Virus record (IMG/VR): IMGVR_UViG_3300037504_000674
Coordinates: 1-64,000 of that record
Reading direction: 5' to 3' (one strand)
DNA: 64,000 bases
DNA from: a virus
In this document: positions 19,199 through 61,599 of the stretch, in pieces
Numbering within the stretch: the stretch's first letter is position 1
How the letters are laid out: each line of letters begins with the position of its first letter
Notes under the pieces: generated by a model
Told to the model about the DNA's origin: nothing
Databases searched by the model: none
What the model saw: only the letters and a program-made list of their open reading frames with translations
Made by a program: the position numbers and the translations under genes

Positions 19199-19406
19199 CT
19201 CTTACTCTTCTGGTTCTAGATACAGTTGGCGGAGATTGTGCAGATGTCACATCCATAGCTTGAAGGGTATGCTTACTCGAACTTTGGCTTCTGTCACAGC
19301 TAGAGTCCACTTTTCTAGCAACGTACCCCAAGTAGAAACTAATCACAATCGACACAGCCCATAATAAGCACATCAAAGCAAACACGAAAGGCGAAATTTC
19401 AATCAT
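19191..19406 (-). CDS. Small single-pass membrane protein, 71 aa
   Basis: One membrane helix at residues 8-31 (FALMCLLWAVSIVISFYLGYVA) followed by a basic, Ser/Thr-rich cytoplasmic tail. AAGGAG lies upstream. It overlaps the ATPase gene by four bases, so it is coupled to it and could be a membrane partner of that protein. No family recognised. Confidence 0.55.
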   Translation of the reverse strand: MIEISPFVFALMCLLWAVSIVISFYLGYVARKVDSSCDRSQSSSKHTLQAMDVTSAQSPPTVSRTRRVRDA

Positions 19407-20812
19407 CCGCGCTTCTCCTTGAGTAATTCTAGATCAATTGAGGCGGCCTTATTTTTGGATTCCCGCTCCTCAATGATGCCGTCATCGACCAGCCTGAGCC
19501 ACACACGATTAGAGCGCGGGTACCCCCAACCCATCGCGGTTTGGATGTAACTCTTGGTTGTTTCCTCGATCCCGCGATCAATAATGTGGTTGGCGAAGTC
19601 GATCACATCCTTCGTCATATCTGAGGAACGAACATCGGCTGCCGTTCTTACATCCAATACTACTTTTTGATTATCTTGATATTTTGCTCTTAGCTCACTG
19701 ATTAAGCGCGTGATATTAGAATAATCCTCCTCGTCACCAGCAAAGGCTGCCTGGAAGCGGGTTGAATTGCTGGTAATAAACGCACCCCTTCCAGGCAAGT
19801 ATTCTGCCTGCGTATCGCCGTGCCCTATGGCAATGTAGGCATCTGTTGGGTTTTGCATTGCCCCGCACATCACCAGTCTAAACTGACCCTTGGCGTCCCC
19901 GCCACCAACACGATCAACCTTAGGGCGCTGGGTGGTAACGTACAAGTGGATTTTCTCTGATCTGCCCAAGCGCATTAAGCTATCCATGCGCTTACCTATT
20001 TCTGGGCTACCTGAGGCGATGAGGTCAGCGATCTCGCCAATATAAACTACCAGGCGAGGCAAATCGCGCTTACCTTCCGGTGGCAGTTTAGATCGCCGAT
20101 CGCGCTCTTCTTCTACCCAAGCCAGAATAGCCGAGGCGATGTCTGGATCGGCTGTCGGCTCATGCATCAGATGGGGCAAATCAGACCACGGCATTACATC
20201 TGCTTGTTTCCCACTCATGATAAACACGCCTAGCTCACTAGGCTTGTACGCGGAAGCCAAGCCGTACAACAGCGTGTTCCCCAGCGTAGTTTTTCCAGAG
20301 CCGCTCGAACCAGCTATTAAGATGTGGTGGTGTTTAGAGGATTCGTTTCTCACAACCACCTCTTCGCCGTCAAGCGTTTTGCCAACCACTATATGATTAG
20401 GCCTGGATGGCCCCAGCGACGATATGACCAACTTTCGGAAATAATCCTCCCCCACAATGTCGGACAGGCTAAAGTCGAACACTATAAACCCGCCGCCAAT
20501 AGAAATGCCAAAATCTGCACCCTCTGGCAATCCAAGATTTCCCTTGATGACATACTTGGTTTTGGACCTGATGGTAGATATGTTGCGAAATGCGTTACCT
20601 TGTTGCTGGTAAGCATGATCAACTTTGCCGAACCTCTCTTGCTGCAACAGCCTGATTTCCTGATGGCTGGCGGGCTTCGCGTAAAATCTGCACTGGTCAG
20701 ACAAGATAACAATTCCGTCGCTATTTATGATTACCGGGTACCCATCATCATAGCAGGCCGACTCAATGAAATCAGCCGCTCTATTTAACAGCTTGACCAA
20801 TTTAGCATCCAA
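19403..20812 (-). CDS. FtsK/SpoIIIE-like DNA translocase ATPase
   Basis: Motor ATPase of the FtsK-HerA superfamily. Walker A is GSSGSGKTTLGNTLLYGLA (about 167-185); Walker B region is RLVVYIGEIADLI, where canonical FtsK has DE-x-A-D and here Gly takes the Asp place; Arg-finger-like region VTTQRPKVDRV and the lid follow. The C-terminus (TKSYIQTAMGWGYPRSNRVWLRLVDDGIIEE) is like the FtsK gamma DNA-reading winged helix. No N-terminal membrane domain is fused; membrane helices are on neighbouring genes. TTG start chosen because GGAGG lies 6 bases upstream inside the previous gene. Role could be genome partition, movement or membrane transport. Confidence 0.78.
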   Translation of the reverse strand: MDAKLVKLLNRAADFIESACYDDGYPVIINSDGIVILSDQCRFYAKPASHQEIRLLQQERFGKVDHAYQQQGNAFRNISTIRSKTKYVIKGNLGLPEGADFGISIGGGFIVFDFSLSDIVGEDYFRKLVISSLGPSRPNHIVVGKTLDGEEVVVRNESSKHHHILIAGSSGSGKTTLGNTLLYGLASAYKPSELGVFIMSGKQADVMPWSDLPHLMHEPTADPDIASAILAWVEEERDRRSKLPPEGKRDLPRLVVYIGEIADLIASGSPEIGKRMDSLMRLGRSEKIHLYVTTQRPKVDRVGGGDAKGQFRLVMCGAMQNPTDAYIAIGHGDTQAEYLPGRGAFITSNSTRFQAAFAGDEEDYSNITRLISELRAKYQDNQKVVLDVRTAADVRSSDMTKDVIDFANHIIDRGIEETTKSYIQTAMGWGYPRSNRVWLRLVDDGIIEERESKNKAASIDLELLKEKRG

Positions 20813-21335
20813 AATGATCCTCCAGGAATAATGCGCACACGTTGGTGTCCCACCCGGTAATCGCTGATATAGCAGAGATAGCCGTGTGCTCATGCCCACT
20901 CTCAACCATTTTTTCTAGCACCTGCCTAATACGGCGCGACCCGTATTTTTCGATTAGGCAGTCCATCGTGTATTCATTGGCTTGGGTGTCTGTGCATACC
21001 AACGTCTTGTACACGGTGTACCCCATCACAACCAAAATAAACAGTGTGGCCGACCAGATCAGCGGCTTGAACACTTGGTATCTAGCTACCATATTAACTG
21101 TCTTGTTATCCCTCATGGTATTTTCGTACAAGATGCGCTCGTTGTTTTTGTGGATGATCTCCTGGGATAATCTTGAATTTCTCTCAGATAGCTCTACGAC
21201 CTGCTTAGACAAATATCTGTTGGTATCCATGACGCTAGACTTAGTCGTGTTGTATGCGCTATACCCCAAAAGCGAAACTATTAAGCAAGTCATGAGTCCT
21301 ATGATGCACGCCATAGTTACCAGTACATCTTTCAT
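20802..21335 (-). CDS. Two-pass membrane protein with coiled coil
   Basis: Membrane segment near residues 5-26, then a charged helix (RYLSKQVVELSERNSRLSQEIIHKNNERI) with heptad pattern, a second membrane segment (about 95-115), and a C-terminal domain with WDTNVCALFLEDHFGC. Topology puts the coiled coil outside, or between the membranes, and both ends inside. The stop overlaps the ribosome site of the ATPase gene, so the two are made together and may form one membrane complex. Confidence 0.6.
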   Translation of the reverse strand: MKDVLVTMACIIGLMTCLIVSLLGYSAYNTTKSSVMDTNRYLSKQVVELSERNSRLSQEIIHKNNERILYENTMRDNKTVNMVARYQVFKPLIWSATLFILVVMGYTVYKTLVCTDTQANEYTMDCLIEKYGSRRIRQVLEKMVESGHEHTAISAISAITGWDTNVCALFLEDHFGC

Positions 21336-21955
21336 GAATCCCTCCACTCGCTACGCGGCGTCTCAGGGTCCTCTTCAACCGTCGGAACCGCACCCTTAAA
21401 GTACCTTACCGATCTACGACCATGCAAGAAATCCGTCACCGAGTGCATGGCCTCGCCTACCACCTCGCCAGTCAAAAACAGCCATGTCACCTTCCATTGC
21501 AGCGGCCTGGCTGTGAGCATCACAATATCTAGCGGGCTCACCCTGATCCTGGCGACAGAGTCAAGCGCAAGCATTGCAACATTGAAAGAAAGTATCCCCC
21601 CGATTATTAGAGCGTTGATAATGAAAAACAGATATATCAGTTTCGTAACCGAAGATAGCACGGGCCAATGCGATAGCGGGCTTCTATGTTTCACGATAAT
21701 TTGATACGGCAACCACAGATGCTTTAGCCCTCTCCAATGATTGTAGGGCGCGCTTGGGATATCTAAATCCGGCGACAGTATGGTCCCGCCAGCATACGCG
21801 CCCGCAGCTATGACAACCGACGAAGGTAGCGGCGCAATGTTTCTATGCGCGACGCCCAATAGTTTGTACGTTAGGTTTGCACAGATAAAGCAAGTGGCCG
21901 CTGTAGTAGCGGCCACTAACTTAGACACTTTTTTGTGCGCAGGATATCCTGGCAT
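21332..21955 (-). CDS. DUF2227-like membrane metal-binding protein
   Basis: Resembles DUF2227 and related YdjM-like membrane hydrolases: AGGTILSPDLDIPS (about 56-69), W-R-G-L-K-H-L-W-L-P-Y (about 74-84) and KHRSPLSHWP (about 89-98). These His and Asp residues sit next to membrane helices and probably bind metal. Family role is unknown. About three hydrophobic segments. It overlaps the gene that follows by four bases, so it belongs to the same membrane group. Confidence 0.7.
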   Translation of the reverse strand: MPGYPAHKKVSKLVAATTAATCFICANLTYKLLGVAHRNIAPLPSSVVIAAGAYAGGTILSPDLDIPSAPYNHWRGLKHLWLPYQIIVKHRSPLSHWPVLSSVTKLIYLFFIINALIIGGILSFNVAMLALDSVARIRVSPLDIVMLTARPLQWKVTWLFLTGEVVGEAMHSVTDFLHGRRSVRYFKGAVPTVEEDPETPRSEWRDS

Positions 21956-21968
21956 TTATCCCCCCAAC

Positions 21969-22451
21969 TCAACTAGAGATCACGATACAGTTATCGAGCC
22001 GAAATGCCCTGGTGAATTCCGGTTGCTTCTGACCGGCTTCGTATACCACAACCTTCACACCGCCTCGCTGAAACTGCTGGTCCCAGCCATGCTCATCTGC
22101 ATAGTCAAGTTTTTCAAACCTCAGCTCGTAGTCATCAGGTAACTCTCCTTTCAGCTTACTTAGTATACCACGATATGAAGGTTTTGCAAGCCAATCGGGA
22201 AAGCCGTCTTCTTCATCTGGTTCTTGTAAATCATCACCAAAACTCTCCCAATTAAACCTGAATTCCTTGCGACCGCCATCGACTGTCTGGCTGCTGATCG
22301 CATCTGGATAATCCTCCGATATTCTGTCGATGGATATCGAGATGTTCGGTTTGGATATATCCCATATTTCAGCTAATTCATCGTAAGTAAACCTGTCACC
22401 AATAGCACGTATTTCAAACAGCCTGTCGTTCCAAGTCTCAGTTAACGCCAT
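21969..22451 (-). CDS. Winged-helix-like protein, 160 aa
   Basis: The first 60 residues (DRLFEIRAIGDRFTYDELAEIWDISKPNISISIDRISEDYPDAI) read as a winged helix-turn-helix with recognition helix near PNISISIDRI. The C-terminal two thirds is acidic then beta-rich, not recognised. AAGGAG in the end of the large enzyme gene serves as its ribosome site. It may bind DNA and act as local regulator or work with the ATPase. Confidence 0.55.
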   Translation of the reverse strand: MALTETWNDRLFEIRAIGDRFTYDELAEIWDISKPNISISIDRISEDYPDAISSQTVDGGRKEFRFNWESFGDDLQEPDEEDGFPDWLAKPSYRGILSKLKGELPDDYELRFEKLDYADEHGWDQQFQRGGVKVVVYEAGQKQPEFTRAFRLDNCIVISS

Positions 22452-22452
22452 G

Positions 22453-25400
22453 TTAGGTTAACTCCTTCACTGGGGAGCGCGGCTCCCAATTCTGATCGTA
22501 CCACCCGCCACCCAACCATCTAGGGTCAGACACCCCGGCGTCGCCGAGGTGCCATGAGCACATCGCTAGTAAATTAGTCTCGCTTTGCACGTAGTCGTAC
22601 ATATCAACGACAACATTTCCCCATGTATCCCAATCGTAATCGGGCATCCATCCCAAATCATTCATGTGCGACGGAGAGTACACCCCGCCCTCGGTGCTGA
22701 TGGTTTTTGGTATCACAGACAAATGATGGTAAATTTGCTCTTGATACACCTGATATCCCTTGAGGCACATGTCGGTTACGAAAGACTGTTGGTAAGGACT
22801 GTAGTCTAGCGGCCTATTGAACCTGGCGGCATGCACTGCCAACCACCCTTGATCGTTTAGGACCGATCTTGCACGATCTTGTTCGTTTTCGCGCAACCAA
22901 AGCGCAATCTTGCTAACCCACATGATAGCAGAATACTTATCGTTTGTGCCATTACGATCCGTGGGCGCCATGGCATAGAACGCTGGTTTGCCACCCATAG
23001 AAACAATTTTCTCGGCATCTAGTAACCAGTTGGACGCAACCAGCGAGACGATATGATCATTCTGCCAGCTCACTAGGTCCTGATAATCTGACCGCCACTC
23101 GTTTGGTAAATTGGGCTCATTGCCTATCTCGAAGTACTGCACGCCAACATCAATGAGTCGCTGAGCGCGCTCGATATTTTTTAGATTACCAGGAAATTGC
23201 CCGGCTTGATACAGCCTGACAATCGGCGTGATATCGTTATTCAAAAGCTCAGCACACATATCCACATTTGCGTCATCACCAGTGTCGAGTAGCTTATACC
23301 ATTTGACACCGAGCCGCTTGAGGTGACCAGCTATATTGGCGGGAGAGTCTGGAGGCGATGTGACCGGTGGCGCATGCACGCCACGCGAGTTGTCTCCATC
23401 GTCTTCGGGCCACAAGATAAGTGGCGCAGGATCAACAAACTCCCCGTTTACACGAACATCAATATGCAGGTGATCGCCGTATGATTTACCGGTGTTATCT
23501 GGCTTGCCTATCAAATCACCGCGCTTCAACTGGTCGCCCTTTTGAACGTAAGCGCCATTCTCTACCATATGAGCGTAGCGTGTGCGTACATCATCTGCGT
23601 TAATACGCGAGTCAACAACAACAGTGTATCCGAAGTCACCCAGATCGCCAACAGACACAACCTCACCAGGAAGTGCGCATACGAGTTCGTCTCCCCAGGC
23701 AGCCCATGACGATCTCAAGTCAAGGCCCATGTGGATATACGAACCGCGATCTGCGCCAAATGGTGATGTGATATGAGGTGGCATGTGCGTTGTGGGGTAC
23801 TCTAGCCAAGGCACGCTTTGATCTGGGTAGTAATACTGACGCAGAAGCCGGGCAAACTCTTCCGGGCCACCAGCATCTATCGGGATATACTCGATGTCTG
23901 GGTAATGTTCGCCGAAAAACGATTTCAGATCGCCATTCCACGAATCTGGATTAAGCGCCACGACCGTTGTATCGGTCCCCGGCCCCCACCCGGCATCATC
24001 CGCAGATGATGAAATCGTAAATCTCTTTTCATTCCAGATATCAGCCAGTCCACTTACCCAATCGAAATCATGGTCTGGGGGGATCAAGATATACGTTCGA
24101 TCATACACCTCGCGTGGCTCACATGATGTTTTGGGTGGCTTGGCGCACTCGTAGTCTTTAACCGAGCGCATGTAATCATGAAGCTCTTGATCCCAATCTA
24201 TAAAGTTAAAGTTGCGCCATGTACTCGCCACCGATGACAGTGTAAACAAGTGGGCGCCAAGGACGTAGTAATCTTCACATAGCCCTTCGTCATACCAGGA
24301 AATCTCATCGAGCCATTCGTTCGGACTAATTTTTCGAGTGTACCACGGAAGGGCAACGTTGAACTCAGTGATCAGCAATGGAACAACCTCGCCACGCGGG
24401 ATCAAGAAATCCTCGTAGAGCCAGCGGTATCTAAACGCCAGCGTCCCGCGATCCGGGTATGTCGGCCTACCAGGAAGTGGCTCGCCAAACCCATCATCCA
24501 TCGGGTAAGCATATTCATGCAATGCCAGCACATGCCCGCCAGCTTTTGCGTCGGCGAACACACCAGTATGGACAATAGCTTCCCAGTCCTCCCATTCTGG
24601 GACACCCATGCTATACGAGAAAAGAGCTAACTTGAACCCATTAGCATTCGCTATGCTTATACAATGCTTGAAGAATTCAGCGATACTCCTGTGCCCCTCC
24701 GTTCCTGGCGGGTCTTGCTCGTTGATAATCTCCCAGTAATCAACGTAAGGGTGCTGTTCCCAAATCGGCATGAGGTTATTCATAATCAGCTCGGCCTCTG
24801 CGGCCAGGTCGCCGCTGAAGTCTGGGCCCTCCACATTTATGCTGGGGTCAACGCCGTGCATAAGACGGGCGACCGTGATTGTCTCAGGGGATTCGCGCTT
24901 GATATCAGCCAGCCATCCGACATCGTTTAGTGCCTTGACTGTCGGTACAGCGAACCCATCATCCATGGCATCCTCTATGACATCCGACGTGCCGCCATCA
25001 CCAATGGAGTGAATACCTAGTTTGGTTCCGGCGGAAATGTAGGGATAGTCATAATCGCCTGGTGGTGGCGTTGGTGGTTCAGGGTGAGTCTTAACCAATT
25101 CTAGCTTAGCGTTGTCATAATACGCATCATTATGCTTGAACGGCCACAAAACTGTGTGGTACAAAAAAACTGTAGCCGTGCTCCTTACCGCCACAAACTC
25201 AACAGGCGGAACTTCGTGGAACTTGTTGTAGATATGCGCTCCGGTACCCCATATGACGCTGCTTGCGTATGGATTGGTTCCGCCGGTCGGGTCAACGCCT
25301 ACCGAGAAGGTGAAATTCTCTAGCGCGTGATCGTCTACCAAACCAGATAACTTGAAGTACCCAGAGTTTCCTGCTACCTCGCTGTAGCTTGGGTCGTCTG

Positions 25401-25761
25401 AATTGGATGACCATGCATGAGCATGAACGCTAAAGCGGTACCGCTTACCTGGCTCAACCTCAACTTGCTGGTACAGCCCGCCCTCGCCAATCTTGTAAAA
25501 CGTGAACATGACATACCCATAGGGAGGAGAAATATAGCGTCCATCATGCGGCGCTAGGCGCGCCTCTGGCTCGGCGTAGCCTACTTGATTATCCGGGTCG
25601 TGCATTGGTGGCCTCTCATCGTGGTAGTACCATACTTTCCAATCCGCAGGGGCGCTCACTTCGCCACGTTCTGTTTCGTAATACCCGTTTTGATCCGGGG
25701 TATACACATGGCACTTATGACTGCCGCCACCTGGTGCATCGAAGTTAGGGTTCTTCAACAT
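22453..25761 (-). CDS. Multi-domain enzyme: CBM, glycosidase, M23 peptidase, glycosidase
   Basis: 1102 residues. About 1-225: carbohydrate-binding-like jelly roll starting with NPNFDAPGGG; about 227-236: Pro-rich linker; about 240-560: TIM-barrel glycosidase of clan A type with WEIINEQ (Glu348, acid/base) and LITEFN (Glu466, nucleophile); about 660-790: M23 (LytM-like) zinc endopeptidase with HMGLD (His677, Asp681) and HLHID (His764, His766); about 810-1102: second TIM barrel with YFEIGNEPN (Glu882) and TISTEGG (Glu1024). All key residues are present. It would cut both sugar and peptide bonds, most likely in the host wall or capsule; no signal peptide is seen. The surrounding genes are for DNA metabolism, not tail, which is odd. 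Confidence 0.8.
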   Translation of the reverse strand: MLKNPNFDAPGGGSHKCHVYTPDQNGYYETERGEVSAPADWKVWYYHDERPPMHDPDNQVGYAEPEARLAPHDGRYISPPYGYVMFTFYKIGEGGLYQQVEVEPGKRYRFSVHAHAWSSNSDDPSYSEVAGNSGYFKLSGLVDDHALENFTFSVGVDPTGGTNPYASSVIWGTGAHIYNKFHEVPPVEFVAVRSTATVFLYHTVLWPFKHNDAYYDNAKLELVKTHPEPPTPPPGDYDYPYISAGTKLGIHSIGDGGTSDVIEDAMDDGFAVPTVKALNDVGWLADIKRESPETITVARLMHGVDPSINVEGPDFSGDLAAEAELIMNNLMPIWEQHPYVDYWEIINEQDPPGTEGHRSIAEFFKHCISIANANGFKLALFSYSMGVPEWEDWEAIVHTGVFADAKAGGHVLALHEYAYPMDDGFGEPLPGRPTYPDRGTLAFRYRWLYEDFLIPRGEVVPLLITEFNVALPWYTRKISPNEWLDEISWYDEGLCEDYYVLGAHLFTLSSVASTWRNFNFIDWDQELHDYMRSVKDYECAKPPKTSCEPREVYDRTYILIPPDHDFDWVSGLADIWNEKRFTISSSADDAGWGPGTDTTVVALNPDSWNGDLKSFFGEHYPDIEYIPIDAGGPEEFARLLRQYYYPDQSVPWLEYPTTHMPPHITSPFGADRGSYIHMGLDLRSSWAAWGDELVCALPGEVVSVGDLGDFGYTVVVDSRINADDVRTRYAHMVENGAYVQKGDQLKRGDLIGKPDNTGKSYGDHLHIDVRVNGEFVDPAPLILWPEDDGDNSRGVHAPPVTSPPDSPANIAGHLKRLGVKWYKLLDTGDDANVDMCAELLNNDITPIVRLYQAGQFPGNLKNIERAQRLIDVGVQYFEIGNEPNLPNEWRSDYQDLVSWQNDHIVSLVASNWLLDAEKIVSMGGKPAFYAMAPTDRNGTNDKYSAIMWVSKIALWLRENEQDRARSVLNDQGWLAVHAARFNRPLDYSPYQQSFVTDMCLKGYQVYQEQIYHHLSVIPKTISTEGGVYSPSHMNDLGWMPDYDWDTWGNVVVDMYDYVQSETNLLAMCSWHLGDAGVSDPRWLGGGWYDQNWEPRSPVKELT

Positions 25762-26761
25762 AATTCTCTCTTATCCTCCTGATTAACGACGCGAGAAGAT
25801 CGGGCTGCGAGCGCAAATTATCGAAAGCGTCCCTGCGACCGTGGCCCAATGTAGCTTCCTCTCCCGTTTCCTCATCAATGTAATAGTACCAAGCGCCCTT
25901 GCGGTACGCCACGCCAAGGTCCTTGCCCAAATCGAAGACCTCTTGAACAATATCAATCCCCAACCCATCTGTGATTTGAAACTCCGCCCACTGAAAAGCT
26001 GGCCCAACATTCTTTTGCCAGGTAATCCTGCTTGTGATACCGACAACAGTGTCATCTGAAGAAGACTCTCTCACGCGACCAGTATAATCAATTCTACCGA
26101 GCACCGACGAATAAAACTTGAGCGCATTGCCACCAACCAGGCCATAGCTTGGCCCAGCAAAGCTCTGTCTTCCAAACAGTGCGCTCCGCTGAGATGTAAA
26201 CAAAATAGCTGTTCCGGTTCTCTTGGCGGCTGACACTAATGGAACAAGTATTTTTTTCATCATCAGCGCATGCTTACCAGGTGCGTTTTCTGATGTTTCT
26301 CCAACCAAAAAAATCTTCGGCGCCCACGCAGCCACAGAATCAACTGCTATCATGGAATACTCGCCGCTTTCGGTCAGAGCGATTACGATATCGCCAACCT
26401 GCTCACCATACACGTCAAGACTCGGATCAATATCAAACACTGTCAGGTCATCCATGTCAACGCCGATATTGCCGAAATAGTCTGGGTCACAACGATGCTC
26501 AAGATTACCGAAAGCCACCTGCCCCAGCTTTTGAGCTTCCCGCATACACATTGCCATAAAGGTTGTTTTGCCGCCGCCCTCCTTTCCCCACACGGTTGTC
26601 AATAACCCGCGAGGGATACCGCACATTTTACCGCGCTCGCCAAGCGAAAGGTCGATTGCCATAGAGCCAGTGGATATGTACTCGATACCGTCAAGGTGCC
26701 CACTTTCTCCGGGAAACTTAATGACACCGCCATACTTCTGGTTCAGTTTTTTTAAGTCCAT
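25745..26761 (-). CDS. recA: RecA-like recombinase
   Basis: Binds single-stranded DNA as a filament and exchanges strands using ATP. Walker A GKEGGGKTT is at 59-67; NLEHRCDPDY holds the catalytic Glu; Walker B is MIAVDSVAAW; the L2 region is ILFTSQRSALFG ... GLVGGNALKFYSSV, as in RecA. At 338 aa it is close to bacterial RecA but has a shorter acidic tail. The ATG at 26761 has GGAGG 12 bases upstream. Overlaps the start of the large enzyme gene by 17 bases. Confidence 0.9.
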   Translation of the reverse strand: MDLKKLNQKYGGVIKFPGESGHLDGIEYISTGSMAIDLSLGERGKMCGIPRGLLTTVWGKEGGGKTTFMAMCMREAQKLGQVAFGNLEHRCDPDYFGNIGVDMDDLTVFDIDPSLDVYGEQVGDIVIALTESGEYSMIAVDSVAAWAPKIFLVGETSENAPGKHALMMKKILVPLVSAAKRTGTAILFTSQRSALFGRQSFAGPSYGLVGGNALKFYSSVLGRIDYTGRVRESSSDDTVVGITSRITWQKNVGPAFQWAEFQITDGLGIDIVQEVFDLGKDLGVAYRKGAWYYYIDEETGEEATLGHGRRDAFDNLRSQPDLLASLIRRIRENYVEEP

Positions 26762-26762
26762 G

Positions 26763-27254
26763 TTAAAGAGATACCTCCCAAACACCACCCCCTAACCACG
26801 CGAGACCATACGGCTCCAATTCACTCATGCCATAGGGGATAGATTTTCTGTCTAGCGCATTCTCTATATCGTAAAACAATTCTAGCGGAATCAGATATGT
26901 TACGCGCGGGTACTTTCTGTGACGTATCCGCTTGCCCATGCACAACCATAACCACATATGATAGTCGTCCTGGTGATCATCGGACCAGTTGCGCTTGTCA
27001 TCATCGATATCGCTAAAAGGTATACGTGTCTCGCCATACTTAACCTCGATGGCATGCCAGTCAACTCGGCGCTCACCCCAGTTTGGCACAGCAACCCGAA
27101 TGTCGAAAGTGCCAGCAGCAGCATTAGGATAAAGCACGTTATGACACCTCGGACAAGACACTGCATCGCGAGTTACCCTCACCCAGTAATCACCATGGGC
27201 TCTGAGCGAACGAGCTGCTTCCGCAGCCACGCCGTGGGACCCCCTCTCTTTCAT
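26763..27254 (-). CDS. PD-(D/E)XK nuclease, Holliday-junction-resolvase or VRR-NUC-like
   Basis: Residues 1-25 (MKERGSHGVAAEAARSLRAHGDYWVRV) give the leading Glu helix; GTFDIRVAVP supplies the Asp; WHAIEVKYGE supplies the E-x-K. This is the arrangement of small PD-(D/E)XK nucleases such as Hjc or VRR-NUC. An inserted CPRC-CHNVL-type Cys/His group near 34-39 may bind zinc. It probably resolves branched DNA with RecA, whose gene follows within one base. The start overlaps the preceding gene by four bases. Confidence 0.75.
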   Translation of the reverse strand: MKERGSHGVAAEAARSLRAHGDYWVRVTRDAVSCPRCHNVLYPNAAAGTFDIRVAVPNWGERRVDWHAIEVKYGETRIPFSDIDDDKRNWSDDHQDDYHMWLWLCMGKRIRHRKYPRVTYLIPLELFYDIENALDRKSIPYGMSELEPYGLAWLGGGVWEVSL

Positions 27255-32729: not shown

Positions 32730-34736
32730 TTGACTGAATATGGTGTAACCGGGCTCAATCAATACGCCGGTATGGTATCAGAGTCTTGGATACCATCGCT
32801 GCGTACCAGCAGGCAGAAGATTCGCATTTACGACGAGATGTCACGCATTTACCCAGTGGGGTCCGCCATGATGCGCACGACATCCATGTTCATGCAGGGC
32901 GCCGAAGTTCGTATAAAACCTGCTGGCGAAGAGCAAGCAGACTATGATAATGCAGACTTCATTAACGATAACATCCACACAATGTACAAAGATTTCTCGG
33001 ATATCATGTCTGACATCGTAAATTTTGTGGCGTATGGCTGGTTCGACTGCGAGCTAGTATATGAGCACGGGGATGATGGAAGGATTAGATGGAAAAAGTG
33101 GGCACCGCGTCACCCGACGACACTCGATAGGTGGGATATCGGACCTCACGGCGATCTTCGCGGGATGTGGCAGCAATGGCTCAATCAGAAAGCGTACATA
33201 CCAATAGAAAAGCTCATACATTTTACCACAACCGGTGCTGGCAAGAATAACCCAGAAGGCACCAGCGTATTCGAGGGCGGTTACACCAGCTGGTTCTACT
33301 CAAAGAACTTATCGATCCTAGAAGCTGTTGTGTGTGAGCGGTTAAGCGGGACCCCCACGATGAAGATGCCACCCAACGTTGACCTCACAGAATCCGGCGA
33401 TAATTCTGACATCGGTAGAGCGAAACGGATAGTCCGCAACATCAAGACTGGCGACGATATGGGCCTCACGCTACCAGACGGATGGAATTTTGAGTACACC
33501 ATGCCGTCGCACGGACCGGCAATTGATATCAGCGAGGTCATCCTGCGCCACGACCGGGCATTTGCTCGCACGCTGCTAATGGATTTTATCATGCTGGGGG
33601 CCAAAGAGACCGGCTCGTTTGCAATGATCAAGGACAAGTCCTCAATGTATGTGATCGCGCTCAACACATACCTGTCCAAAATAGCAGGCGCGATTAACAA
33701 CCAGGCTATTCCGCGCCTTTTTGAACTGAATGCAATGCCGCGCGGGTCAGGCCTCCCCACTCTTTACTTCGATAAGATCAGCAAGGTAGATATTGGCGAT
33801 TACTCGACGATGATCAGCAATTTGTTCAACGCCGGCGCCGTCACGTACAGCCTTGATACCGAAAATCAAATCCGCCGCGTTGTTGGTCTAGAGCAAATAA
33901 GGGAACCTGGCATGATGCTAAAGCCTAACCTGCCAGCGCAAGCTAACCCTGAAGACGGCAAAGAGGTAGGCGAGACTAAAATCCCCAAGTCGCAAGCCGC
34001 TTACACGGACGCAGAAACAGCCGAGGAAATGGAAGAGATGGCGGACCGCGTAGGCATGCAGCTTGTTCGCGCCTACGACAAAGCCGCCAAGGGCTTGCGC
34101 GACGACATCAAGACAGACAACGAGGAAGAATGGGAAGGCATCGTTGATTTTTACTTGTCTGATATCTCCGAAGCTCTCAAGGACCGGCTGAGCAGGTCAT
34201 TTTTCAGCATGTGGAAGGAAGCGGTTGGCGATCGGCCCGGCGTTGAAGGCCTGCGGGCTATTGTTATGTACTTATCAGAGCAGGCCGACTACATCGATGA
34301 TAGCTTGCTGCCCGGCATACGCTCAAAGATACTTGAGAGCGCGCGCAACGCGAGAGACGAAGGTGTTACCCCGGCGTTCTTCTCCATGGCCATATCTGCC
34401 GCTATCGACGAGTTCAGGTATCGCGTTTCTCAATACGCCGGTAGCGTATACTCGTTGTTCGCCAACCACGCAGGCGCTCAAGCCGCCAAGAAAAAAGCTG
34501 ATTCCATCTGGTCTACTCATGGACTAAGCGTAAACTGGGACACCGGCAAACTTGTCGGGGACGGCTTACTCGCGCGCTACAGCGGCCCGGAAGACGAGCG
34601 CAACTGCCGTGGCTGCGATCACAATCTTGATCTTGGATGGACCAACCCTGAAAACCTAACCCCGATTGGGCAGAATGAATGCCTGCATAACTGTCGGCAC
34701 TTCATAGAGTACAAATATCGTGGGAGGATTTTGTGA
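32730..34736 (+). CDS. Portal protein with C-terminal Mu F/SPP1 gp7-like part
   Basis: The first 420 residues fit a DUF935/HK97-type portal: PVGSAMMRTTSMFMQGAEVRI, DIVNFVAYGWFDCELVYEH, IPIEKLIHFTTTGAGKNNPEGTSVFEGGYTSWFY. The C-terminal 240 residues are helical and end in CRGCDHNLDLGWTN...NECLHNCRHFIEY, a Cys/His group typical of the Mu F/SPP1 gp7 head-morphogenesis tail. Thus portal and minor head protein appear to be fused in 668 aa. TTG start with AAGGAG upstream. Confidence 0.78.
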   Translation: MTEYGVTGLNQYAGMVSESWIPSLRTSRQKIRIYDEMSRIYPVGSAMMRTTSMFMQGAEVRIKPAGEEQADYDNADFINDNIHTMYKDFSDIMSDIVNFVAYGWFDCELVYEHGDDGRIRWKKWAPRHPTTLDRWDIGPHGDLRGMWQQWLNQKAYIPIEKLIHFTTTGAGKNNPEGTSVFEGGYTSWFYSKNLSILEAVVCERLSGTPTMKMPPNVDLTESGDNSDIGRAKRIVRNIKTGDDMGLTLPDGWNFEYTMPSHGPAIDISEVILRHDRAFARTLLMDFIMLGAKETGSFAMIKDKSSMYVIALNTYLSKIAGAINNQAIPRLFELNAMPRGSGLPTLYFDKISKVDIGDYSTMISNLFNAGAVTYSLDTENQIRRVVGLEQIREPGMMLKPNLPAQANPEDGKEVGETKIPKSQAAYTDAETAEEMEEMADRVGMQLVRAYDKAAKGLRDDIKTDNEEEWEGIVDFYLSDISEALKDRLSRSFFSMWKEAVGDRPGVEGLRAIVMYLSEQADYIDDSLLPGIRSKILESARNARDEGVTPAFFSMAISAAIDEFRYRVSQYAGSVYSLFANHAGAQAAKKKADSIWSTHGLSVNWDTGKLVGDGLLARYSGPEDERNCRGCDHNLDLGWTNPENLTPIGQNECLHNCRHFIEYKYRGRIL

Positions 34737-50100: not shown

Positions 50101-50809
50101 GCTTGAGGAAATGTACCAAAACTTTCTTGACACATCTGACGCTAGTTTGGGAACCGGGGGCGCTGGCTCATCATCAACCGTCTTCAATGACTATGGTCAA
50201 ATCATGCCAACAAGTGTAAGAGACGGCATCATGAACAACCAGCAAGCCGCCTGGGACCAAATGGGCAATATGTGGCAGGGCGTCATCGACACGACGGACT
50301 CGTATGGCGAGCCGCTTACAACGTCGGTTGATACAATGACGAGCTCTTCGCTTATTGCGCTTGAGCTCAAGATACCCCAGTTCAAATCTAGCGGAGAGGC
50401 GCTAATCCAGGGTCTGATTGACGGTATTATCGGCAAGATGCCGGAGGCTGAGAGCGCGGTGAAAGATGCCGCAGATAAAGTATCCGATGCGGCCTCGTCT
50501 GCCTGGGATATCTCATCTCCGTCAGGGGTTTTCGAGAAGATGGGTAATCAGCTAATGTCTGGCACGCAAAAGGGCATTCAAGACAAAGCGTATGTGCCAA
50601 TGAGAGCTATGCAGCGCGCTGCTGGCGGCGTGATTAGCGCTGGCCCAGGAGCGACTGGCGGGAATACTAACAACACAACGACCATCGTGATCCAGGGCCC
50701 AATCATTGAGACAATGAGCGTTCCGAACATGCGCGTCGGTAGAGAAATGTCGCGCCAGATTGGTCGAGATTTATCAAATATGGCTAGTATGAAAAGGAGC
50801 CCAGCATAA
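47174..50809 (+). CDS. Tail tape measure protein
   Basis: 1211 aa, the longest tail gene but one. N-terminal basic amphipathic region (KMNKLGDKAKKASTKASNASKMLKKALLG), hydrophobic stretches around 80-100, a TMP-like core (ASNLAFSLIGERVGKDLPRMLGVAQAASLTTGESIERMFNSLVKG), coiled coil near 500-590, a glycine-rich linker near 592 (GGGGGRGGGGDG), and further helices to the end. It sets tail length; by the common rule of about 0.15 nm per residue the tail would be roughly 180 nm. GTG start. Confidence 0.85.
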   Translation: MAGKPTGTIVVDAVDETGKVIKSISVKMNKLGDKAKKASTKASNASKMLKKALLGAAKGAKKFIGKLALAPLRAFGSALKNISTIILGMLGYQGFRAIGRSIANMVEEAGPIQSVRTQFANFMQQANAHIPDFNTGADEMIAKMQGMTGGALDVTRMLKASNLAFSLIGERVGKDLPRMLGVAQAASLTTGESIERMFNSLVKGVGRLSTRWLDNLGITVSTTEAYGRYADENDLVASNLSHTHRVQAMLNAAMEQGEKIMMRTGDVQAFLSTQMSALNANFLNTRDSVINAFAPLATTVLMFVNDMTSQVTPKVEDFATAFAMTFAKIPPSAYASAQNTVAGLTEGMNLVEPVVLSAQERMGERAANWAVNALSWGANVGAQFVSGIIQGFSALIAGAMNYISAVLASWLRPGSPPKVSPQIDNWGYGTMESWVEGMLDYPVDPVLLPKIKGDLKDVFESGVKDSLFQWGADSIAEWAEGLSIIDMDFLSQAIEEATVKAKILNKELTSTYKEQRTELFKLRVLNRDPKAIRAQQKRVKTSKNALKTNEKELEQLENRRKLIREQLELLRLLERALKDMERTSKRGGGGGRGGGGDGAPGLDDIPAPELPLVGTSSLESQITGLKERLKEIFGEPLQQVADSFSKAADEIGLAWGNLRTTIEENSPAIKEKSQDAAKSIGSFFAEANKQISPALQDLKQAFIDAAPEFLKAGDSAMKFAGLWRLAGKVYGFASAMIAKLLAIQVRALGRFASRMSEKIDGLKMLFSRDLLGGLRRIFFSGASDINTWPEFMWAMLKRGFMNSFDFPSMFTNVFTNLFKPGVIKFLDSARGLIKRVFGEAAAESSSDWSATWGSAAVESGSAIVQGVADGVSQGATGATNSANQFASGLQSQFATEFDPSMYSVYGENIAIGIGDGLTSGGSDANLAMEEMYNQFLKTTESSVGSGEESPYSQYGSYIPDGISQGIESNAESANMTLEEMYQNFLDTSDASLGTGGAGSSSTVFNDYGQIMPTSVRDGIMNNQQAAWDQMGNMWQGVIDTTDSYGEPLTTSVDTMTSSSLIALELKIPQFKSSGEALIQGLIDGIIGKMPEAESAVKDAADKVSDAASSAWDISSPSGVFEKMGNQLMSGTQKGIQDKAYVPMRAMQRAAGGVISAGPGATGGNTNNTTTIVIQGPIIETMSVPNMRVGREMSRQIGRDLSNMASMKRSPA

Positions 50810-52680
50810 TGTCAGACGTTATCAAGCTGTCGGATGGAACCACCGATATCGACCTATACTACGATACTGATGCGTTTGTGATGATGCAAGAGGGTAATAA
50901 CTTCGGCATACCAGAACACCAGCGAGTTATGCATGAGTCGGACTTCTCAGATGGCCAAACCATTATCCGCAACACACTTGGGAACCGCATGTGGCCCATG
51001 CAACTCGCGGTATACGGTTCAGACAACGACGCGGTAGTTGATAACCTTAATGCTCTCTCTAGATTCGCCAAGCAAGCACGTAGGTACCAGCTAGACGAGA
51101 CACGCAGCGAAGTTTATTTACAGGTTCAACTAGACGGCATGACAAACTGGACTAGATTCAGCGTGATTGACATTGAGTACGACAGCGCGGCGTTCTTCAA
51201 TTACTTCAATCTGGGTGAGGATAAACTAATTTTTGGTGATGGGCTGACACTGACAATAATCACCGACCCAATTGGGTACGGAGAGGAAGTGACTCTCAAG
51301 AACTATCTCAAGAATCCCCACTTCGAAGAAGTGAACACCGGGATAGATCAAGGATCGGGGGCCGCGAAGCACTGGAACGACGACGGGTCGCCAACTCTCA
51401 CATTCGATTGGGATATTCGCGTATGCGGCGCCAGATCACAGAAAGTGGTAACCGACGCTAGTAGCAACCAGGCGATATACAGCGATACAGTTTCATGCTC
51501 AAGCTCGCAGGACTTTGCGTGCTACGTATGGGTCCATAAGGCTTCAGGAGACGATATCTCGCTTTACGTGAGCGGTGATGCGTCAGGGGTTATCGACACA
51601 GCCACATACAGCGCGGCGGCAGAAACCAAAACCGGAGCTAATGGTAACACCTGGAAGAGACTTGAGGTGACCGGAACAACCGGAGCTTCTGACTCAACGT
51701 TGACCGTTGGTGTTCAGAGATCATTGGGGGATGCGACTGCTGCCACAACATTCTACGTCGATCAGTCTTACTTACAGCTTGGCGCAAGCTCAATCCCGTC
51801 TGGCTGGGCAAGTTACTACAGCATCAATAATCACTATCAACCGTCCTCAAGTATTATACCATATCTCGATGTATGCGATATTCCAGGCGACGAACCAGCA
51901 GATTGCAAATTTGTCATTGACGAGACTGATAGCAACACATCTATCAGATATCTATACATGATGAATAGCGCTCAGGACAACATTGCGAGCATGAGGTTCT
52001 TTTTGGATAGCGATGACGCCGGCGTTCCCGGCGGGACAAACACAGTCACAGATTCTGATAGGAGCGGCGGTAGCTACGGAAATTTCACTACAAGTTCTAC
52101 TTTTGCGGACGTAGCGAGGTTCGCACCATCCGATTGGAGCGATTGGTATCTGTCCTATGTGGTATTTGCGGCAGTTAATGTTGGGTCAGGCCTGGAATTC
52201 AGAATTGAGTACCCGCCAGTGGGGAACTACCCGCAGTACAACACAGGTGAAACATCGGTTGCCCATACAAATCAGTGGGAGCTGCTGAACCTTGGCGTGA
52301 TCAATCAGATTTCTGCAAACGATGAGTTCATATTTGCAGCGAAGGGCGGAGATGTCAACTACGACTTCTTCTACTGCGTCTCGATATCAGATGGGTACTC
52401 GATTATTGACTGGGGCACCTATGTTATCGGAGGAGCCTCGTCTCCCCAGGCAATCATTGACCCAATGGAGAACCTAAGGTACACCAAGACGGGCGCGGGT
52501 ATCATACAATCAACATCAAACGCTCACCTTGGAGACTATATACAAGCAAAACCAGGTAGGTTCAACAGAATAATCATGATCGGCACGGGAGATGAGAATG
52601 TACACACGCCAGCTAATGGGAACATCGAGGTGACTCTAACATATCGCCCAAGAACGGAGCTTCTACTGGGGGTGACCTAG
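50809..52680 (+). CDS. Distal tail protein with inserted carbohydrate-binding-like domains
   Basis: N-terminal 165 residues: MSDVIKLSDGTTDIDLYYDTDAFVMMQEG ... RNTLGNRMWPMQLAVYGSDNDAVVDNLNALSRFAKQARRYQL, in the style of distal tail (Dit-like) proteins. From about 168 (LKNYLKNPHFEEVNTG) a beta-sandwich of CBM type follows, then another jelly roll near 350-520, and a last strand pair. Binding to host glycans is likely. AAAAGGAG upstream. Confidence 0.65.
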   Translation: MSDVIKLSDGTTDIDLYYDTDAFVMMQEGNNFGIPEHQRVMHESDFSDGQTIIRNTLGNRMWPMQLAVYGSDNDAVVDNLNALSRFAKQARRYQLDETRSEVYLQVQLDGMTNWTRFSVIDIEYDSAAFFNYFNLGEDKLIFGDGLTLTIITDPIGYGEEVTLKNYLKNPHFEEVNTGIDQGSGAAKHWNDDGSPTLTFDWDIRVCGARSQKVVTDASSNQAIYSDTVSCSSSQDFACYVWVHKASGDDISLYVSGDASGVIDTATYSAAAETKTGANGNTWKRLEVTGTTGASDSTLTVGVQRSLGDATAATTFYVDQSYLQLGASSIPSGWASYYSINNHYQPSSSIIPYLDVCDIPGDEPADCKFVIDETDSNTSIRYLYMMNSAQDNIASMRFFLDSDDAGVPGGTNTVTDSDRSGGSYGNFTTSSTFADVARFAPSDWSDWYLSYVVFAAVNVGSGLEFRIEYPPVGNYPQYNTGETSVAHTNQWELLNLGVINQISANDEFIFAAKGGDVNYDFFYCVSISDGYSIIDWGTYVIGGASSPQAIIDPMENLRYTKTGAGIIQSTSNAHLGDYIQAKPGRFNRIIMIGTGDENVHTPANGNIEVTLTYRPRTELLLGVT

Positions 52681-60819: not shown

Positions 60820-61599
60820 ATGATTGGACTAACTAAGTTCTCAAAATACAGTGACGACGATATAGCAACTGCTCAGCGCGTTGGCGCCCAGGCGATCAGC
60901 TCGCTACTAGGGCAGGATACGATGCCGGGTATGAAGCTGTACCACAACGTAATCGCCGAGCAGCTAGACGCACCAACCAAGTATTTGAAGAGCGTGCTTG
61001 GTAAAATAGCGACCGCCAGACAGGTGGGTGTATCACACTTCGATTTACATTATTACCCTAACTCTCGTGGCTCGGGATATGGATGGGCATGGAACAATGG
61101 TGAGCAGTTTTGCTCGTGGTGGTTACCAGTGTACTACGGTATTAAAGAGGAATTCCCCGATCTGCACATTGGGTATCCGAAACTAGAGATGGGGACCGGT
61201 ATAGGAGATTATCGCTGTAGCTCTAGGCAGTTTATGGCGGATAGCTGGCCTGCTATTGAGGCCGCTGACTTCTTGAGCGCGCTCACAACCTGGGATGACA
61301 ACGGAGATGACGGTGTGTCGCGCTCGATATGGTACATGTATTATCTATCTGAGAAAATCAATAAAGACCTAACGGTAACTTTTTATAATAGCAACAACAA
61401 CGTTGCCAAGCGAAGAAAGGCTGAGCAGTACATTACGTTCTACGAGGAAATGCGAAATCTTGACAACGTTATTGCTGCGTTTTGCCACACACTAAGTAGC
61501 CCGGAGGATAGCGAGGTGTGGGCTACTTGGAGGAGTGACTCTGGTGAATCCCCGATTCCATCTCTCGTTGCTCGATATATTCGAGGACTTGATTCTTGA
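60820..61599 (+). CDS. TIM-barrel glycosidase-like protein, 259 aa
   Basis: Resembles small TIM-barrel proteins related to glycoside hydrolases: KIATARQVGVSHFDLHYYPNSRGSGYGWAWNN, EFPDLHIGYPKLEMGTG, FLSALTTWDDNGDDGVSRSIWYMYYLSEKI, VTFYNSNNN. A clear NE/E acid pair like that of the large enzyme at 22453 is not seen, so activity is unsure. It stands alone on the plus strand between minus-strand genes and overlaps the gene opposite by 77 bases at its end. No ribosome site; probably leaderless. Confidence 0.5.
   Translation: MIGLTKFSKYSDDDIATAQRVGAQAISSLLGQDTMPGMKLYHNVIAEQLDAPTKYLKSVLGKIATARQVGVSHFDLHYYPNSRGSGYGWAWNNGEQFCSWWLPVYYGIKEEFPDLHIGYPKLEMGTGIGDYRCSSRQFMADSWPAIEAADFLSALTTWDDNGDDGVSRSIWYMYYLSEKINKDLTVTFYNSNNNVAKRRKAEQYITFYEEMRNLDNVIAAFCHTLSSPEDSEVWATWRSDSGESPIPSLVARYIRGLDS

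Follow-up and report, generated by a model that had tools for sequence, protein, structure and literature searches.

The window, a 64,000-nucleotide stretch of a 92,752-bp IMG/VR virus record, carries an open reading frame at positions 22453 to 25761 on the minus strand, with an ATG start and 1,102 codons for a predicted multidomain lysin, exactly matching the single gene originally predicted there. From the N terminus, the protein comprises a CBM-like jelly roll (NT; residues 1 to 235, positions 25057 to 25761), a first barrel of clan GH-A type (B1; residues 240 to 553, 24103 to 25044, Glu348/Glu466), a small alpha/beta domain (LNK; residues about 545 to 628, 23878 to 24129), an M23 (LytM-type) metallopeptidase (residues 663 to 785, 23407 to 23775), and a second barrel of clan GH-A type (B2; residues 787 to 1099, 22465 to 23403, Glu882/Glu1024). 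AF2, Foldseek, and Pfam agree with the predicted order of CBM-like domain, glycosidase, M23, and glycosidase, in which LNK had been missed, and the eight residues that the prediction named as catalytic (E348, E466, H677, D681, H764, H766, E882, and E1024) are all found in the translation. LNK, whose strands and helices alternate in the AF2 model, recurs in other architectures (GH24-LNK-B2, NT-LNK, B1-LNK, and LNK-LNK-M23). No signal peptide is seen by inspection. Gene fusion through assembly error was ruled out, since L039, another contig, has the same five-part order.

M23 is the sole Pfam match in the lysin (PF01551, residues 677 to 778; E = 1.3e-15, 57.8 bits versus a gathering cutoff of 28.7). 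Its metal ligands form the HxxxD and HxH motifs (His677, Asp681, His764, and His766), and this HDHH set is present in 15 of 15 aligned M23 domains.

Directly upstream, a RecA/UvsX-like gene overlaps the lysin start (25745 to 26788, minus strand; PHROG UvsX-like, E = 3e-37), and this neighbor is conserved in L092, L170, and L094. Downstream lie the gene for a 160-amino-acid protein that is HTH-like by inspection (21969 to 22451, minus strand; no Pfam match), found at the same place in L092 and L170 (blastp, 32 to 33%), as well as FtsK-like and RNR genes, so the proposed location in a DNA-metabolism operon is correct. The lysin gene is part of neither a lysis cassette nor the structural module and is on the opposite strand to the tail genes. 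No holin or spanin was found among its neighbors; a 181-amino-acid protein at 20802 to 21347 shows two possible transmembrane segments by inspection. Elsewhere in the window, on the plus strand, we observe a portal protein akin to the Mu and Thermus P23-45 portals (32730 to 34736) and a tail-region protein with a weak CBM_4_9 match (50809 to 52680; 18.4 bits, below the cutoff).

Barrel folds and catalytic residues

The AF2 model of residues 785 to 1102 (pLDDT 95.3) has eight strands, with Glu882 three residues past strand 4, His977 in strand 6, and Glu1024 in strand 7. The model of residues 1 to 640 contains an all-beta N-terminal domain (beta sandwich), an eight-strand barrel, and LNK, and here Glu348 lies just past strand 4, His415 in strand 6, and Glu466 in strand 7. 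Both domains thus have the features of clan GH-A, that is, an eight-strand alpha/beta barrel with N347-E348/E466 in B1 and N881-E882/E1024 in B2, and, judging from the strand positions, the Glu side chains would point into the barrel pocket. Foldseek matched the B2 model to PslG (GH39), GH17, GH53, GH5, and GH2 and the model of residues 1 to 640 to GH10, GH26, and GH2, with shorter matches to CBM4 (CBM4-2), CBM16, and CBM61. The predicted glycosidase fold is therefore upheld by the eight-strand barrels and by structural relatives among clan GH-A-type enzymes.

These relationships do not extend to a named GH family. Neither B1 nor B2 of the window has a Pfam GH match, none of 43 B1 sequences matches any Pfam GH family, and PDB profile searches with the barrels gave matches too weak to name one. 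Marginal GH53/GH5 Pfam matches occur in 2 to 3 of 39 B2 sequences, and a distant B2-like protein (L046) passes PF11790. A single hhalign comparison (E = 8e-12) identifies the two barrels as distantly related.

N347, E348, H415, and E466 are invariant across the 43 B1 sequences (about 20 to 53% identical to window B1), and both catalytic Glu residues are present in 15 of 15 viral B1 copies, recovered with search patterns that left the Glu positions out. The B2 search pattern contained the acid/base Glu and not the nucleophile Glu, so the apparent conservation of the former is biased; among rows aligned across its site, most keep the latter, the exceptions being the second copies of the tandem pairs in L055 and L061 and a barrel elsewhere in the window. 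This stand-alone degenerate B2-like barrel of 259 amino acids (60820 to 61599, plus strand) is 31% identical to the L048 barrel, and in the alignment columns it has lost both catalytic Glu residues, because NEP has become YYP and the TE site has changed. It is kin to the GH24-LNK-B2 lysins and sits past the tail genes, a place at which barrel lysins are found in other phages. Such a dead barrel suggests, at the sequence level, that some barrels may serve as binding modules. The tandem B2 paralogues in L055 (559 to 5063) and L061 (5998 to 9191) have GGEMN and ATQGG in the second copy in place of GNEPN and STEGG, and the replacement of STEGG by ATQGG removes the nucleophile.

Relatives and exchange of the middle enzyme

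Single-sequence similarity searches with the whole lysin and with B2 retrieved no relatives; a degenerate NEPNL pattern did find some, from which unrelated clan-A-type proteins (for example, L010, L015, L017, and L020) were dropped. Barrel relatives are present in IMG/VR contigs and in Chloroflexota genomes. Among the 50,697 phage records of INPHARED, neither B1 nor B2 finds a sequence match at E = 0.1, the M23 part alone does match, and the L092 lysin likewise finds nothing; B1 also has no match among PLSDB plasmids. The architecture had been called unusual, which stands with respect to cultured phages but not with respect to uncultivated viral contigs, where it recurs.

The full NT-B1-LNK-M23-B2 order is shared by the window and L039 (54% identity in M23 and 47% in B2), and LNK-M23-B2 is found on the short contig L168. 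Across B2, the window is 42 to 47% identical to L039, L092, L168, L170, and L171. Fusion partners, counted among proteins found by barrel similarity alone, vary widely. M23 fusions (window, L039, L042, L093, and L168) include B1-LNK-M23-B2like in L042 and B1-LNK-M23-B3 in L093, B3 being a third barrel type. C39 or C39-like fusions (L003, L091, L092, L094, and L101) include B1-C39-B2like in L003, NT-B1-LNK-C39like-B2 in L092, NT-B1-LNK-C39like-B3 in L091, and NT-LNK-C39like-B1-B3 in L094, where the C39-like label reflects a weak Pfam match (E = 0.06), a profile comparison with a probability of 72%, and the conservation of Cys, His, and Asp residues. In addition, we observe B1-LNK-Amidase_2-B2 in L170, Amidase_2-B2 in L043 and L171, GH24-LNK-B2like in L006, L007, L008, L012, L014, and others, and B1-GH25 in L098.

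The window, L092, and L170 have in common a recA, lysin, HTH-like gene locus, with one extra gene between recA and lysin in L170 and an FtsK-like gene likewise following in L092. At this locus, B1 and B2 are retained while the middle slot holds M23 (window), Amidase_2 (L170), or a C39-like domain (L092); identities to the window are 58% for B1 and 42% for B2 in L170, and 35% and 46% in L092. In the B1 tree, the window and L170 are sisters (100/99) although their middle enzymes differ, and they are nested with genome-encoded B1 (99/96). L039 B1 groups elsewhere (100/100), despite an M23 and a B2 like those of the window. The disagreement between the B1 tree and the M23 and B2 identities, together with the differing middle enzymes, implies that parts have been shuffled, whereas the design, in which two glycosidases accompany one peptide-bond hydrolase, is kept. 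A second FtsK-like protein was also noted in L050 (6910 to 8067, record positions 86910 to 88067; 28% identical to the L092 FtsK-like protein), the other one being at 19403 to 20905.

Anaerolineae homologues and the probable host

The B1 profile was found in 140 of 249 genomes in an Anaerolineae class sample (that of G026, labelled Anaerolineae bacterium), in 16 of 301 in a phylum sample, and in none of 294 Planctomycetota genomes (an empty result without a positive control). When 84,980 genomes were scanned with B2, 40 loci were confirmed, of which about 35 carry a Chloroflexota label. Anaerolineae genomes encode B1-LNK, NT-LNK, LNK-LNK-M23, and C39-B2 proteins, which have no family name and whose modules are homologous to those of the lysin, with up to 57% identity in B1 and about 50% in the N-terminal domain. 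Examples are the B1-LNK, NT-LNK, and LNK-LNK-M23/NT-LNK gene pair at L174 (8488 to 9777), L175 (8271 to 9590), and L180 (1 to 2578). Unlike the lysin, these modules occur in separate genes with housekeeping-type neighbors; some products are lipoprotein-like (L106 and L123), and for others no signal is obvious. Among cellular proteins, the B1-LNK and NT-LNK proteins closest to the lysin show no clear signal peptide, and their neighbors are ribosomal-protein-like and dnaN-like, by inspection only. On these sequence grounds, the host of the phage is very probably a member of the Anaerolineae (Chloroflexota).

The envelope of the Chloroflexota is poorly understood: they stain Gram negative and are considered monoderm, with a layered envelope without clear outer-membrane evidence, the layers of which have been proposed to consist of polysaccharide or protein (PMC13319060). 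As a separate observation, a protein with C39_2 and a PF11860 N-acetylmuramidase lies downstream of a C39-B2 gene in L051 (6049 to 7881), a short contig that also has an M23-SH3 gene.

Probable wall lysis and competing readings

We consider it most probable, at roughly 0.68, that the protein is a phage multi-catalytic wall lysin, most likely an endolysin, directed against an Anaerolineae host. It has the phage-encoded peptidoglycan hydrolase domain by which endolysins are recognized, being an M23 protein on a virus record. M23 would cleave peptidoglycan peptide cross-links, and B1 and B2, with the acid/base Glu past strand 4 and the nucleophile Glu on strand 7, would cleave glycan there too; their target could be the peptidoglycan strand itself or, with greater likelihood, a wall-attached polysaccharide shielding the peptidoglycan. 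The jelly roll may bind carbohydrate, LNK may act as a spacer or wall-targeting module, and release would be via a holin, no signal peptide being evident by inspection. This reading draws on sequence, fold prediction, conserved catalytic residues, fusions to peptidoglycan hydrolases, and a conserved locus with an exchangeable middle enzyme, from which we infer enzymatic activity, substrate, host, timing, and holin release. A wall substrate for the barrels is favored because they are repeatedly fused with five unrelated peptidoglycan-hydrolase types, and the earlier suggestion of a lysin directed at a wall whose glycan is unusual holds up as such. To our knowledge, GH3, GH22, GH24, GH25, and GH73 all fall outside clan GH-A. 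Since these are the glycosidase domains named in the consulted part of a wall-hydrolase review (PMC6403190), a wall-attached polysaccharide seems at least as likely a substrate as the peptidoglycan strand.

Some observations speak against a lysin. The gene belongs to a DNA-metabolism operon and not to a lysis cassette, with no holin or spanin found adjacent; signal-less cellular B1-LNK and NT-LNK proteins beside housekeeping-type genes are not explained by an external wall substrate; and PslG, the best structural match, is an exopolysaccharide hydrolase. The last of these, along with GH5-like annotations of phage proteins among the top viral structural matches of B2 and the CBM-like N terminus, would fit a capsule or exopolysaccharide depolymerase instead of a wall lysin, a role that the original prediction had offered as an option. 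As a sole role we regard it as decidedly unlikely, as five unrelated peptidoglycan-hydrolase fusion types are unexpected for a pure capsule enzyme, and the barrels may act on wall-attached polysaccharide even so. Gene position could also point to a virion-associated, tail-borne enzyme that opens the wall at entry: the barrel genes of L098 and L091 follow the tape measure gene at a distance of a few genes, that of L098 adjoins a tail-spike-like gene, and the dead barrel of the window sits past its tail genes. The window lysin gene, however, belongs to a recA operon on the opposite strand, some 21 kb away from the tape measure gene, and this place is kept in L092 and L170, which makes entry an unlikely function.

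Because the link to recA and FtsK-like genes is conserved, the protein might instead be an early wall- or envelope-modifying enzyme, another option of the original prediction, coexpressed with DNA-replication genes and without a role in lysis; we consider this very unlikely, because the barrel lysins of other phages, fused to GH24 or GH25, are encoded close to the tail module, and three activities in one protein look destructive. That the barrels mainly bind the wall, leaving the middle enzyme alone to cut, would agree with the catalytic residues lost at 60820 to 61599 and in the second tandem copies of L055 and L061, but it is very improbable given both Glu residues in every viral B1 copy, the four invariant B1 positions, and both Glu residues in most B2 copies with the site covered by the alignment.

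The wall lysin that we favor is a modular lysin of known type, with two unclassified glycosidase families as its new part. It shares with modular multi-catalytic phage endolysins (M23, Amidase_2, GH24, and GH25) a peptidoglycan-hydrolase domain, accessory modules, and exchangeable catalytic domains, and differs in that its peptidase stands between two glycosidase domains of clan GH-A type and in that its gene is in a recA operon. We found no description of these lysins in the open-access literature searched, and the domain census in the consulted part of a paper on a Yellowstone endolysin names no such barrels (PMC5017753). The retention of the barrels while the middle enzyme is swapped points to a wall-breaking toolkit new to description. 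More tentatively, with chances somewhat below even, B1, B2, and B3 may be undescribed glycosidase families that cut a glycan typical of the Anaerolineae envelope, and two such barrels plus an exchangeable peptide-bond hydrolase may be the standard plan of the phages of this class, unlike the lysins of cultured phages. With the barrels come two glycosidase families that Pfam does not model, and their sequences offer markers by which orphan viral contigs could be matched to hosts. Because the specificity of a lysin reflects the chemistry of the wall it opens, these domains would also be ready-made tools for probing the glycan of an abundant class that is for the most part uncultured.

Clan-A-type barrels are shared, by structure search, with GH5-like proteins of cultured phages (for example, Erwinia phiEaP8 and Klebsiella SopranoGao), which are at most 17% identical to the window barrels. 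The closest solved fold to B2 is that of PslG (GH39 type) from Pseudomonas aeruginosa, at 14% identity and a TM score of 0.63 by query length; we know of no fusion of PslG to a wall peptidase, and the substrates of PslG and B2 likely differ.
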